Positions 33,178 to 39,736 of a stretch of 64,000 nucleotides of DNA are shown piece after piece. The stretch's first letter is position 1, and each line of letters starts with the position of its first letter. The stretch covers positions 186,001 through 250,000 of the forward strand of contig CP069394.1 of NCBI GenBank assembly GCA_016887485.1. Reading direction: 5' to 3'. The position numbers and the translations under genes are program-made. The notes below the pieces were generated by a model. The model was not told where the DNA came from, searched no databases, and was given only the letters and a program-made list of their open reading frames with translations. The stretch comes from Chloroflexota bacterium (GTDB taxonomy: Bacteria; Chloroflexota; Anaerolineae; Anaerolineales; Anaerolineaceae).

Positions 33178-33206
33178 TTGACATCCATTGACGAAGACAT
33201 TATAAT
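33178..33206 (+). promoter_or_regulatory. rplU promoter (consensus sigma-70)
   Basis: TTGACA (33178-33183), a 17-base spacer and TATAAT (33201-33206): a perfect consensus promoter, as expected for a ribosomal protein operon. Confidence 0.92.
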
Positions 33207-33259: not shown

Positions 33260-33325
33260 AACTTTCCCGATCCCTGGCGGTGACACGCGAGCGAGATTGG
33301 TTAAGTGAAGATTGGAGTAATAGAA

Positions 33326-33643
33326 ATGAAATTTGTTATTGTCGAACAAGGCGGCAAGCAATACCGTGCTGCTGAAGGTGAGACGATCGACGTCGATCGT
33401 TTGCCAAATGAGGTGGGTGAGGCGATCACTCTGGAAGATGTCCTTTTGTCCGTAGATGACGATAAGGTCGTTGTTGGCACCCCGCTAATCAAGGGCGCCA
33501 AGGTCCAGGCGAAAGTTCTCAATCATTTCAAGGGTCGCAAGATCCTGGTTTTTAAGTATCGCCCGAAACAACGCTATCGCGTAAAGACGGGTCATCGTCA
33601 GCAATACACGAAGCTGCTGATTGAATCGATTGGATTGGAGTAG
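33326..33643 (+). CDS. rplU: Ribosomal protein L21
   Basis: 50S subunit protein binding 23S rRNA. 105 residues from the ATG at 33326, with GGAG upstream; a seven-codon upstream extension is not needed, since L21 proteins begin close to [15 protein letters not shown]. The C-terminal signature [20 protein letters not shown] is present, followed by KTGHRQQYT. First gene of an L21-L27-L31 operon. Confidence 0.97.
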
Positions 33644-33648
33644 GAAAA

Positions 33649-33915
33649 ATGGCTCATAAAAAAGGTGGCGGTTCCTCACGAAACGGTCGTGACAGCCAGT
33701 CGCAACGACTTGGTATCAAAAAATTCGGTGGTGAATACGTGATCAGCGGCAATATCATTGTCCGCCAGCGCGGCACCAAGATCCACCCCGGCTGGAATGT
33801 CGGTATGGGTAAGGATCATACACTTTTTGCAACAACCGAAGGTCTGGTTCATTTTGAGACGATGCCCGGTGGCCGCAAAAAGGTTCACGTTGTTACACTC
33901 CCTGAGGATGAATAA
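33649..33915 (+). CDS. rpmA: Ribosomal protein L27
   Basis: 50S protein whose N-terminal arm reaches the peptidyl-transferase centre. 88 residues. It begins [16 protein letters not shown], with no cleavable N-terminal extension as found in Firmicutes, and contains [15 protein letters not shown] and the GKDHTLFA segment. It starts five bases behind rplU. Confidence 0.97.
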
Positions 33916-33951: not shown

Positions 33952-34431
33952 ATGAAGAAAGATATTCATCCCCAATACTATCCTGATGCGGTGGTGATTT
34001 GCGGTTCCTGTGGCAACACCTGGACAACCGGCTCAACCCAAAAAGAAATCCGCACAGAAGTCTGCTCCAATTGCCATCCCTTCTATACTGGCCAGCAGCA
34101 GCGCATTCTTGACCGTGAAGGTCAGGTGGATCGCTTCTACAAACGGCTTCAGGCTCGCAAGGATTACCTCGAAGACAAGAAGGCCAAGGAAGAAGAAAAA
34201 GTATCTCCCGATCGCCCGATCGAAGAACTTGGTTTGGGTACCCGGGTTGAAAAGGCCCTGACCGAAGCTGGTATGAAGAATGTTGGTGACGTTTTGGAAC
34301 GACTTGAAGGCGGCGAGCAGGCCATGCTGGATATCAGCGGCTTTGGTCGCAAGTCCTTGATTGACCTCAAGAAGGCCCTGCGCCAATTGGGTTACAAGAT
34401 TCCGGATGCTGCGGAAGAAATCACCGTCTAA
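33952..34431 (+). CDS. rpmE: Ribosomal protein L31 fused to an RNA polymerase alpha-CTD-like domain
   Basis: 159 residues, about twice the usual length. Residues 1-60 are L31 of the zinc type ([17 protein letters not shown]; ligands C17, C20, C38, C41; NCHPFYTG). A charged Lys/Glu-rich linker (about 62-87) leads to residues 88-148, which resemble the C-terminal domain of Rpo[12 protein letters not shown]...[13 protein letters not shown]...[16 protein letters not shown]. By my alignment from memory, R98, G132, K134 and S135 sit where E. coli R265, G296, K298 and S299 contact DNA; K101 replaces N268. The gene is third in the L21-L27 operon and is followed by a terminator. No frameshift is needed to read through. 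Confidence 0.9.
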
Positions 34432-34464
34432 TTCCAGAAACAAAAACGAAAAATGGTAAACTTA

Positions 34465-34500
34465 ACAGGCAGATGAAACTTCATCTGCCTGTCATTTTTT
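34465..34500 (+). terminator. Terminator after the rplU-rpmA-rpmE operon
   Basis: ACAGGCAGATGAA (34465-34477) pairs perfectly with TTCATCTGCCTGT (34480-34492), and a CATTTTTT tail follows. The upstream ATG of the thymidine kinase frame lies in this hairpin, so that start is excluded. Confidence 0.9.
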
Positions 34501-34520
34501 ATTTCATAGGGAGAGGGTTT

Positions 34521-37393: not shown

Positions 37394-39736
37394 GTGATGA
37401 ATAACAAATTAAGTAAATTGCTTGGATTCTTATCTGTATTTCTGGTGTTGCTTTCTTTTCAGCCGATTAAGACCGTAAACGCAGTTGACTATATTTCGAC
37501 GGATGAGGTTTGGAGTGGATATCAATTCCCGGATCAGGATATTGTGATCCAAAGTGGGGGATCTTTGACCATCCAATCGGGGGCGACGGTGCTCTTCGAC
37601 TGTTCGGATGCTGGTAATGTCGGCATTGATCCTGACCGGATTGAGATCATTGTTGAGAGCGGCGGTACCCTGAACATTGACGAGGCAACGCTCGCTGGCA
37701 CGGGATATCCCTCGAATAACTGTTGGTATGGGATAAAGTTTGAGCCGGGCTCGACCGGCCATATACTTGACAGTAATATTCGGGATGGCATTCGAGGTGT
37801 GGATATCCAAAGTGAGGTGGAGGTCAGCCGAAATATAATTCAACACATGCATGGTGTGGACGGTGAGGCACTGGAGGCCGGACCTACACCTTCCGGGACT
37901 GCTTGGGGAATTTATGTTAAGACGCCTAACGCGACAGATACACCTCTAATCATGGATAACGAAATTCGGAATGTCTTTGGGGGAGATGGCGCTGATGGAA
38001 TGGTTGATGGTGAAAGCAGCTCTGGTGGGGCGGCTTATGGGATATTTGTTTTGACGGGTGCACCTCTCATTAGTGGTAACACGATCCACATCGTCTGGGG
38101 TGGAAATGGGGGAGACGGAGGGGATGGCAGCGATGGCGATGATGGGCTTAATGCGATTGGCCCGGGCTCGGACGGATCTGCTGGCTCCCCAGGTTCAGCT
38201 GGTCAAAATGGCAGCCTTGGAGGAATCAGCGCAGGTATTTACCTTATTGATTCCGAAGGCGTAATTATTACCGAAAATGAAATCTACGCCATCCGTTCCG
38301 GAGATGGTGGGGCTGGGGGCAAAGGGGGCAATGGTGGCAAAGGCGGCAATGGGGGTGGAGGAGTATCGGGAGGCCCCAGTGGTCAGGATGGTGGAGATGG
38401 CGGCGCTGGTGGCGCAGGCGGCGCAGGTGGCATTGGATTTCCTAGTCGAAAGGGCTACGGGATATATTTTCCAGCAGATGTTGGGGATTCGGTAGAGATT
38501 ATAATGAACACTATCTATAACATCAGCAGCGGCGCGCCCGGAACAGGTGGCGATGGTGGTGATGGCGGCCTGGGTGGTAATGGTGGCACAGGAGGGGATG
38601 GCACGGTCACAACGGGCGGCAATGGCGGTATGGGGGGCAGCGGTGGTGGGGGCGGCGCCGCTGGCGTAGGTGGCAATGCAGGGGATGTTTATATGGTCCG
38701 ATTGGAAACAGGAGAGCTTCTAGATTTATCTCAAAACAAGGCTTCCTGGAGCATGGCCTCGGCGGGTGGAGATGGCGGGCTTGGCGGTAGTGGCGGTAAT
38801 GGGGGCACGGGTGGAAATGGGGGTGCTGGTGTTACGGCTAAGGGAATTGGTGGAAATGGAGGTGTTGGCGGCGCTGGCGCTTCTGGTGCTGATGCCGGTA
38901 ACGGAGGGATGACCTATGGCCTGGATATATATTATTTGGCCTCTCAGCCGACGGCAATAACGAATAATATCATTGATAACCTGCAGGGTGGTATTGGAGG
39001 AGGCGGTGGAAGCGGTGGTAATGGTGGAACAGGCGGTGATGGTGGTTTCGGTGTACCAAACGGCGTTGGTGGCGATGGCGGGGATGCTGGGGGTGGGGGC
39101 GGTGGAGGAGATTCCTCTGGGTCAATCCTGGTATTTAATTACTACTGTTCAATCGCCTTAGTCAATAATACGCTTTATTTACCTAAAGCTCCGATTGTTG
39201 GCGGCACAGGTGGTGTGGCAGGTACTGCAGGAATAGGGGGCTTGGGATCCACCTCTGGCAGTACTGGTACTGATGGTGTGGCAGGGTCAGTTGGCTTTGA
39301 CAATGATGCCATCGGCTTGGCTAGTTATACATCTTCGGGAATGCCCATTGATGTTTATCTGTTCAATAATATATTCAACGGTTCGAGTGCTGAAAATACG
39401 ATTGCTATCTATGAAAATTCGGAAGTGACTTACAGCGTAGAATCGAATAATTTTTGGAATTGGTCAACGTTCTCAGTTCCCGCTCATGCATTTTGGGCCA
39501 ATAATATTTCTGTACATCCGTTATTTGAGGATGAAGGTACAGGTGATTTTCATCTCACGTCTGCCTCTCCTTGTATCGATGCCGGGGACAACAGCGCGAT
39601 AGGAGTCCCAGCTGTGGATTTTGAGGGCAATTCCCGGCCTATTGATGGCGATGGTAATGGGAGTGCTATTGTTGATATAGGTGCCTTTGAATTCGATCGT
39701 GGGGTGGAGATGTTCCTGCCGATATTACTAAAATAA
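37394..39736 (+). CDS. Secreted glycine-rich beta-helix protein, choice-of-anchor Q type C-terminus
   Basis: 780 residues from a GTG at 37394 (ATG alternative at 37397). A signal peptide (about 1-30) is followed by an N-terminal beta-rich domain. Seven beta-helix rungs then follow (about 171-195, 215-235, 280-302, 355-379, 432-456, 508-530, 578-600), each of the form GIY...I..N.I. Each leads into a glycine-rich (GGX)n block: 196-213, 236-278, 303-349, 380-430, 457-506, 531-577, 602-634. The C-terminal part (about 640-770) has the HLTSASPCIDAGDN...DIGAFEF pattern of choice-of-anchor Q proteins, ending VEMFLPILLK. It is probably a cell-surface fibre or adhesin; function unknown. It stands alone with its own promoter and terminator. 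Confidence 0.85.
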   Translation: MMNNKLSKLLGFLSVFLVLLSFQPIKTVNAVDYISTDEVWSGYQFPDQDIVIQSGGSLTIQSGATVLFDCSDAGNVGIDPDRIEIIVESGGTLNIDEATLAGTGYPSNNCWYGIKFEPGSTGHILDSNIRDGIRGVDIQSEVEVSRNIIQHMHGVDGEALEAGPTPSGTAWGIYVKTPNATDTPLIMDNEIRNVFGGDGADGMVDGESSSGGAAYGIFVLTGAPLISGNTIHIVWGGNGGDGGDGSDGDDGLNAIGPGSDGSAGSPGSAGQNGSLGGISAGIYLIDSEGVIITENEIYAIRSGDGGAGGKGGNGGKGGNGGGGVSGGPSGQDGGDGGAGGAGGAGGIGFPSRKGYGIYFPADVGDSVEIIMNTIYNISSGAPGTGGDGGDGGLGGNGGTGGDGTVTTGGNGGMGGSGGGGGAAGVGGNAGDVYMVRLETGELLDLSQNKASWSMASAGGDGGLGGSGGNGGTGGNGGAGVTAKGIGGNGGVGGAGASGADAGNGGMTYGLDIYYLASQPTAITNNIIDNLQGGIGGGGGSGGNGGTGGDGGFGVPNGVGGDGGDAGGGGGGGDSSGSILVFNYYCSIALVNNTLYLPKAPIVGGTGGVAGTAGIGGLGSTSGSTGTDGVAGSVGFDNDAIGLASYTSSGMPIDVYLFNNIFNGSSAENTIAIYENSEVTYSVESNNFWNWSTFSVPAHAFWANNISVHPLFEDEGTGDFHLTSASPCIDAGDNSAIGVPAVDFEGNSRPIDGDGNGSAIVDIGAFEFDRGVEMFLPILLK
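38100..39290 (+). repeat. Glycine-rich coding repeats within the surface protein
   Basis: Six long tracts of GGT/GGC/GGG-rich triplets, each 100-150 bp, alternate with less biased 65-80 bp segments coding the helix rungs. Copies share the unit GGN-GGN-(A/G)AT/GCN but are diverged, so the array is old rather than a recent microsatellite. Confidence 0.8.

Follow-up and report, generated by a model that had tools for sequence, protein, structure and literature searches.

That ribosomal proteins can gain domains is known in principle, for instance from the long L21 proteins of alphaproteobacteria. It is contested how closely the ribosomes of bacteria trail RNA polymerase and whether the two are physically joined. 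In one type of expressome, polymerase and ribosome are bridged by NusA and NusG, and in an in vitro coupled system NusA and NusG have had no effect so far (PMC10953045). The C-terminal domain of the RNA polymerase alpha subunit (alphaCTD) is bound by NusA-NTD and NusA-AR2 in E. coli; AR2 has a C-terminal aromatic pair, W490/F491, and AR domains are so far known only from this species and some other gammaproteobacteria (PMC7171158). On the ribosomal side, E. coli bL31 bridges the two subunits, with its C-domain passing over S13/S19 to S14 and h41 in the 30S head; subunit association requires intact bL31, and protease 7 can cut the protein near residue 62, an event held to occur at cell breakage (PMC9966373). 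In the open-access literature, searched largely at abstract level, we found no description of an alphaCTD on a ribosomal protein, and a term search in the available part of PMC7203096 gave no occurrence.

The window analysed here, a stretch of 64,000 nucleotides from a Chloroflexota bacterium, contains a gene in which these two kinds of component are joined. This rpmE variant (33952..34431, forward strand) is one frame of 159 amino acids plus a stop, and internal stops are absent from its translation. Residues 1-66 (33952..34149) form a zinc-type bL31 domain that matches PF01197 (Ribosomal_L31) with an E-value of 1.4e-27 and 96.1 bits against a cut-off of 27. It possesses the zinc cysteines of the C+ form (C17, C20, C38 and C41), which are nearly invariant among 42 aligned fusions. 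An alphaCTD-like module occupies residues 84-152 (34201..34407), and PF03118 (RNA_pol_A_CTD) matches residues 79-144 with an E-value of 7.6e-11 and 42.0 bits (gathering score 23.8). The L31 and RpoA models of NCBIfam split the protein into the same two halves (TIGR00105: 85.6 bits, cut-off 38.35). The initial annotation had described a single frame joining a complete four-cysteine L31 to an alphaCTD-like tail, and both the translation and Pfam, with the two parts above their cut-offs, bear this out. Its residue map was recovered unchanged in the alignment to E. coli K-12 rpoA: R98, G132, K134 and S135 correspond to R265, G296, K298 and S299, and K101 takes the place of N268. The codon of R98 lies at 34243..34245. 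The N-terminal dimerisation domain of alpha is absent from the fusion, the N-terminal part of which is L31; the RpoA of the genome is encoded elsewhere (locus L002), and L31 is present in one clear copy.

An AlphaFold2 model built on the 42 fusions (mean pLDDT 76.2, pTM 0.42) consists of the L31 part, one continuous helix predicted at residues 58-83 (34123..34200) that spans a Lys/Glu-rich linker, and a compact helical module. Foldseek matched the N-terminal part to ribosomal L31 chains and the module to the alphaCTDs 1doq (TMt 0.75) and 8y5t_A2 (TMt 0.82). The top matches of VIA-align are alphaCTDs, with a Z-score of 10.9 and an rmsd of 1.5 A over 65 residues for the E. coli domain (residues 85-152 of the fusion protein). 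Judged by title, each of its first 43 rows is a chain of RNA polymerase alpha or of a plastid polymerase; Dmc1 (Z 8.3) and RAD51 (Z 8.1) rank below the alphaCTDs. The match of the tail to RpoA C-terminal domains is significant by sequence (PF03118) as well as by the fold of the model, and Pfam, NCBIfam and fold comparison agree on an alphaCTD homologue. A chance resemblance of the helix-hairpin-helix (HhH) kind was rejected, since HHH_5 gives a weak match of 14.5 bits (cut-off 27), PF03118 exceeds its own cut-off and VIA-align favours alpha chains. Overall, the window gene encodes a bL31 that carries a copy of the RNA polymerase alphaCTD on a helical linker.

The mechanism that we favour, with a probability of roughly 0.38, is that the ribosome-borne module contacts the transcription complex. 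The bL31 part would insert normally, its C-terminus would exit the 30S head near uS14/h41, where uS14 has uS3 and uS10 in its vicinity, and the helical linker would bring the module within reach of the transcription complex. The module would touch either nucleic acid near the polymerase, via R98 and a basic last helix, or NusA; through this contact, ribosome and polymerase would stay joined, or ribosomes would be retained close to the nucleoid. A different fate of the tail would be its removal by proteolysis, after which it would act as a separate small nucleoid- or polymerase-binding protein and L31 would only set its dose. The protease 7 cut near residue 62 of E. coli bL31 points in this direction, but the linker is predicted as one helix, and we consider such a fate very improbable.

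The fusion gene stands third in an ordinary organisation of ribosomal protein genes, rplU-rpmA-fusion, all on the forward strand. rplU (33326..33643; the ATG was picked by reading, the tool having given a GTG at 33305) encodes a plain bL21 without the module, and the open frame at 33649..33915 is, judged by its sequence, presumably rpmA, encoding bL27. A consensus scan gave three promoter-like sites, one of which is a sigma-70-type site (TTGACA-17-TATAAT, 12 of 12) at 33178..33206 (+); shuffled sequence yields 2.7 such sites on average, whatever their quality. Directly 3' of the fusion gene, at 34465..34492 (+), folding energy indicates an intrinsic-terminator-like hairpin with a T run, which would close rplU-rpmA-rpmE (-23.6 kcal/mol and z -5.43 for the stretch 34440-34520). 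With L31 last in this apparent operon, a consensus promoter-like site and a terminator-like hairpin of its own, the layout would suit an autogenous regulator, where unassembled L31 would use the module to bind its own operon, at the promoter DNA or on the leader mRNA, and tune the synthesis of ribosomal proteins. However, Rfam gave no credible leader or element near the fusion gene (one chance-level match), and the carrier of the module differs among relatives. Regulation of the own operon, which the initial annotation had listed among its options, has nothing in its favour beyond the operon layout and is improbable. Further downstream in the window, positions 37394-39736 (+) encode a secreted-looking protein of 780 amino acids that has an apparent N-terminal signal and contains long repeats rich in Gly-Gly.

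An L31 match that extends into the module is present in at least 149 of 396 genomes of the class (150 matches listed), a count that rests on the match range and on a subset of loci that was read. Genome G611 (locus L053) is the sole one of the 150 listed matches without the module. From the fetched loci, 53 distinct L31 modules were extracted. When the best 80 named loci from GTDB genomes were considered, both parts were in one frame in 67, all Chloroflexota by title; the titles of fused loci include Anaerolineaceae, Pelolinea, Leptolinea, Promineifilum and Thermoflexales, and no fusion outside Chloroflexota is among the best 80 named loci listed. No relative has a stop between the two parts, neither among the 42 full-length fusions aligned nor among these 67 single-frame loci, and PF03118 matches at E <= 0.01 in 41 of the 42. 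An artefact or a missed stop is ruled out, since the single frame recurs across many genomes. The fusion is genuine and is conserved within a portion of a single class of Chloroflexota, which the names indicate to be Anaerolineae.

We identified at least one fused L31 in 20 of the 59 families of the class examined; the 39 families without one, among the matches listed, are mostly represented by one genome each, and family f113 is outside this resolved tally. In none of 47 further genomes did an L31 match run beyond residue 121; G498, G515, G531 and G417 gave no L31 at all. The module was absent from all 20 loci picked from odd or unfused L31 genes. Matches were obtained in 21 phage records (5 rows listed), none of which reached 80% query coverage. 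PDB searches (best 60 rows of 89, 75 and 73) gave no ribosomal chain that bears the module. In genome G372, the fused L31 (L040:2024-2467, forward strand) has all four zinc cysteines replaced, so that the module also occurs on a zinc-free L31. The tails of unfused L31 relatives are of mixed charge and varied length. Very long low-complexity Lys/Ala/Pro/Glu tails of approximately 150-250 residues are found on the unfused L31 at loci L277 (G411), L280 (G439), L281 (G415) and L268 (G427). Judged by the predicted proteins of these four relatives, L31 tails are variable in Chloroflexota even without the module.

The surface of the L31 module was compared with that of RpoA, residue counts referring to 52 L31 modules (without L028) and 42 RpoA modules, and charge means to 53 L31, 8 S16 and 42 RpoA modules. 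At the position equivalent to R265, 45 of the 52 L31 modules have R, four have K and three have Q. G296 has a glycine as its counterpart in 50 of 52, K298 a lysine in 37 of 52 and S299 a serine in 35 of 52. At the position of N268, asparagine is found in 13 of 52 L31 modules versus 42 of 42 RpoA modules, the window protein having K101, and the E302 equivalent is D in 31 of 52. In the weighted L31 columns, R98 has the lowest entropy among charged positions (R 0.86), closely accompanied by the K304 equivalent (K 0.88), and R98 is nearly invariant over the 42 aligned fusions. The mean net charge of columns 49-63, the last helix, is +3.58 in the L31 modules versus -0.02 in RpoA; it amounts to 0 in S16, +0.71 in NusA and +1.75 in L21. 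The DNA-contact centre is kept and its surroundings are altered, a pattern that fits nucleic-acid binding of changed specificity, be it to DNA or RNA. From the initial annotation of a DNA-binding tail, homology and fold stand; DNA binding is plausible from sequence, with the R265 equivalent kept but the N268 equivalent mostly lost.

The L31 module is under purifying selection, as indicated by the pairs L005 and L006 (dN 0, dS 0.32) and L001 and L007 (dN 0.14, dS 2.0); several other pairs are saturated in dS. A recent copy of the genome's own RpoA CTD is disfavoured, since identity to RpoA modules does not exceed 53.2% and the L31 modules cluster. In a quick tree, 44 L31 modules (43 plus the mislabelled L028) group together with a support of 85, and six label changes are required if L028 is counted as 'other'. 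A single clade of all 53 L31 modules stays acceptable in the AU test (p 0.475), from which the rows L134_other_3, L109_other_6, L130_other_1 and L003_NusA_1 were dropped as poor.

The altered surface also has to be weighed under a purely ribosomal explanation. Here, a recruited HhH RNA-binding domain would clamp rRNA (16S or 5S) close to the L31 bridge, strengthening subunit association or head position, with no partner in transcription. Loss of N268 together with a basic last helix suits general phosphate binding better than the reading of A-tract DNA, and the requirement for intact bL31 in subunit association of E. coli (PMC9966373) is in line with such a role. The mixed-charge tails of unfused L31 relatives suggest that a contact by the tail may even be ancestral. 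The other carriers of the module bear on this explanation as well as on the favoured contact with the transcription complex.

The first of these carriers is NusA. The NusA of the window genome bears a weak module that scores 19.0 bits with PF03118, which is under the cut-off, and 46.3 bits with our own profile. Strong modules are present in the NusA proteins of G469, G417, G404 and G456, with two copies each in G469 and G417. Applying our own profile with a threshold of at least 18 bits, we detected a C-terminal module on NusA in 19 of 26 L31-fused genomes examined, 11 of which had been picked after a PF03118 match (of the other 15, eight carry it), and in none of 15 hand-chosen unfused genomes. 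A Fisher test for NusA module and L31 fusion gives p 2.7e-6, with genomes that are related and selected and a profile that includes NusA modules; the co-occurrence is confounded by phylogeny and is only a lead. G505, G582, G502, G410 and G682 have a fused L31 without a credible NusA module, G240 and G600 are borderline cases, and a NusA module is combined with a plain L31 in G404 and G445. The unfused genome G088, which is outside the 15, gave PF03118 at 18.6 bits in a frame of 625 amino acids, and the fetched stretch contained neither NusA nor the module.

In genome G469, the genes encoding NusA and L31 lie side by side in divergent orientation. The L31 module of this genome shares 82.8% identity with repeat 2 of its NusA (85.6% on the DNA level over 180 bases); the closest L31 module from elsewhere reaches 53.1%, and the RpoA of G469 itself 56.5% (DNA 63.9%). 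Tree support for a NusA-like placement of this L31 module is moderate (82-86). From pairwise identity and this support, it looks like an exchange of the module between NusA and L31. The direction was deduced from G445, a member of the same family, because it has a plain L31 with a similar tail and a NusA with the module.

Two further ribosomal proteins carry the module as well. Frames read after the alphaCTD search revealed it on bL21 and bS16 of G403, G546 and G456 and on bS16 of G498, G429 and G558; Pfam, applied to four of these proteins, recognised two as L21 with the module (44 and 56 bits) and two as S16 with the module (43 and 45 bits). All six genomes also have a module on the NusA that was read. 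Full-length matches of the S16 fusion were found in G403, G531, G546, G480, G558 and G498 (298 genomes, among the matches listed) and of the L21 fusion in G456, G403, G546 and G480 (199 genomes, among the matches listed), and reading of frames added S16 fusions in G515 and G128. Altogether, at least ten genomes from four families (f7, f94, f119 and f123) possess an S16 fusion, an L21 fusion or both. L31 is plain in all seven of these in which it was found (G403, G546, G480, G456, G558, G429 and G128, the last one judged by match range). An S16 match past residue 125 was discarded as a sign of fusion, as the module was absent in the six cases read (G477, G581, G574, G526, G639 and G372). In G128, the S16 match ended at residue 107, yet the module lies far downstream in the same frame; since the match range misses such cases, the count of S16 fusions is a lower bound.

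S16 and L21 are located elsewhere on the ribosome than L31, and a single docking geometry therefore cannot apply. The change of carrier between L31, S16 and L21 argues for a tether rather than for one precise docking site, and under the favoured contact with the transcription complex S16 and L21 would be alternative tether points. Several points speak against an rRNA clamp: the S16 and L21 modules, at different positions of the ribosome, show a small basic shift or none, the S16 fusion is modelled as S16, a disordered linker at residues 100-130 and then the module, and NusA and RpoC carry the module too. The clamp is the chief rival of the favoured contact, possible though doubtful.

In the beta-prime subunit, the module is located in the interior. 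Two genomes with unfused L31, G361 and G184, gave weak PF03118 matches in frames of about 1500 amino acids. In these RpoC proteins an alphaCTD-like module is inserted within Pfam Rpb1 domain 3, with 45 and 42 bits in our own profile and scores below the PF03118 cut-off of Pfam. With the RpoC insertion stretch as query, matches were found in 48 of 199 genomes of the class, distributed over 13 families (f6, f10, f14, f100, f103, f104, f107, f110, f111, f113, f114, f115 and f117). All 24 loci read after this search contain the module in RpoC with 13 to 64 bits, the lowest scores (G538 13.2, G483 20.5 and G435 20.9) each being doubtful alone; the RpoC loci with the insertion are L341, L342, L346-L365 and L368-L371. 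None of the 48 carriers is among the 149 L31-fused genomes, and the RpoC of the window genome does not match the insertion stretch. It is possible, that L31 and RpoC carriers simply mark two branches of the class. As part of the favoured mechanism, the module built into RpoC would be the polymerase side of the same contact. The RpoC-inserted modules keep the arginine, and the K298/S299 site reads otherwise, for instance GPAA; since the arginine is kept without K298/S299, the R98-type residue may be partly structural.

The module was also observed on proteins outside this set. In G168, which belongs to the genus of the window, a frame of 442 amino acids (L294:1960-3285, reverse strand), which we take to be bactofilin-like by eye, ends in an alphaCTD-like module (55.8 bits, own profile). 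Large proteins with several such modules are encoded at L109:561-4649 (reverse strand; G469) and L134 (G723), the former with five PF03118 stretches and a sigma-70 region 4-like stretch (Sigma70_r4, 26.8 bits). Further non-ribosomal carriers are encoded at L130:619-1137 (forward strand), L136, L140, L132, L135 and L139; by eye, these carriers include HTH-type, deoxynucleoside-kinase-like, PPK2-like, glycosyltransferase-like and other large proteins.

Such a spread raises the question of a lineage-wide accretion, where a small stable alphaCTD-like domain at an exposed C-terminus or loop would be tolerated rather than needed. The module sits on RpoC, NusA and three ribosomal proteins and, in some families, on PPK2-, deoxynucleoside-kinase-, glycosyltransferase-, bactofilin- and sigma-like proteins, named mostly by eye. 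This wider spread, together with the RpoC arginine that is kept without K298/S299, makes coupling slightly less likely and accretion slightly more likely. However, the L31 module recurs through many families under purifying selection, and R98 is nearly invariant. Given the many carriers, mere accretion is a serious alternative, although a rather unlikely one.

In the favoured reading, a ribosome-borne module that contacts the transcription complex, the tie to transcription draws indirect support from the occurrence of the same module on NusA, RpoC, S16 and L21, its presence on NusA and RpoC arguing for such a link. Against coupling, the module is also present on proteins without an evident tie to transcription, and the basic shift of the last helix is absent from the S16 modules and small in those of NusA and L21. 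In a broader form, which we put forward tentatively, transcription and translation in Anaerolineae would be linked by an alphaCTD-like domain that NusA and the ribosome have in common with RNA polymerase, where it is part of alpha and, for some families, also of beta-prime. It would have been captured by L31, S16 and L21 and exchanged between NusA and L31 at least once, ribosomes would be docked to polymerase or template, and the bearer of the extra copy would vary by lineage. A polymerase domain in three ribosomal proteins, in NusA and in the interior of RpoC within one class is a natural test case for coupling. If the module binds rRNA, it would illustrate the lineage-specific rebuilding of a subunit bridge. 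Either way, the alphaCTD is a domain that also occurs apart from the alpha subunit, and there is a real chance that the biology behind the fusion is new; that the fusion is undescribed, as initially annotated, is not contradicted by the open-access literature searched at abstract level.

Among known systems, the long bL21 (NF008916/NF008915, PRK12278) resembles the fused L21 in being a ribosomal protein with an extra C-terminal domain, which we take to be helix-hairpin-helix-like. In the fused L21 P0004, the long-bL21 match reaches residue 168, within the module, while that of P0002 ends at residue 126. Given the P0004 match, the extra domains of both protein types may be related, and the two fused L21 proteins fail the long-bL21 cut-offs (113.6 and 119.4 versus 193; 90.5 and 104.3 versus 281). 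An alphaCTD-like domain is also present in NF011498 (PRK14906) and NF033442, presumably an RpoC/alpha-domain fusion and the BREX protein PglW, with weak matches. In PRK14906 the match is near the C-terminus (approximately 1315-1370 of 1459 model positions), whereas the Anaerolineae module is inside Rpb1 domain 3. No NCBIfam model for the fused L31 was among the matches of the 42 fusions, and in the Pfam and NCBIfam models searched the alphaCTD outside alpha is named only part by part. The gammaproteobacterial NusA AR1/AR2 are likewise small C-terminal domains on a transcription factor, at the same place as the Anaerolineae NusA module; the latter matches PF03118 or our own alphaCTD profile. 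With ordinary bL31 (PF01197/TIGR00105), the fusion shares the complete zinc-type domain, the single clear copy and the neighbouring ribosomal protein genes, but it is longer by about 90 residues. Finally, the E. coli alphaCTD (PF03118) is alike in fold, profile match and the equivalents of R265, G296, K298 and S299; it differs in that no ribosomal protein is attached to it, whereas the L31 modules mostly lack N268, mostly have D in place of E302 and possess a basic last helix.
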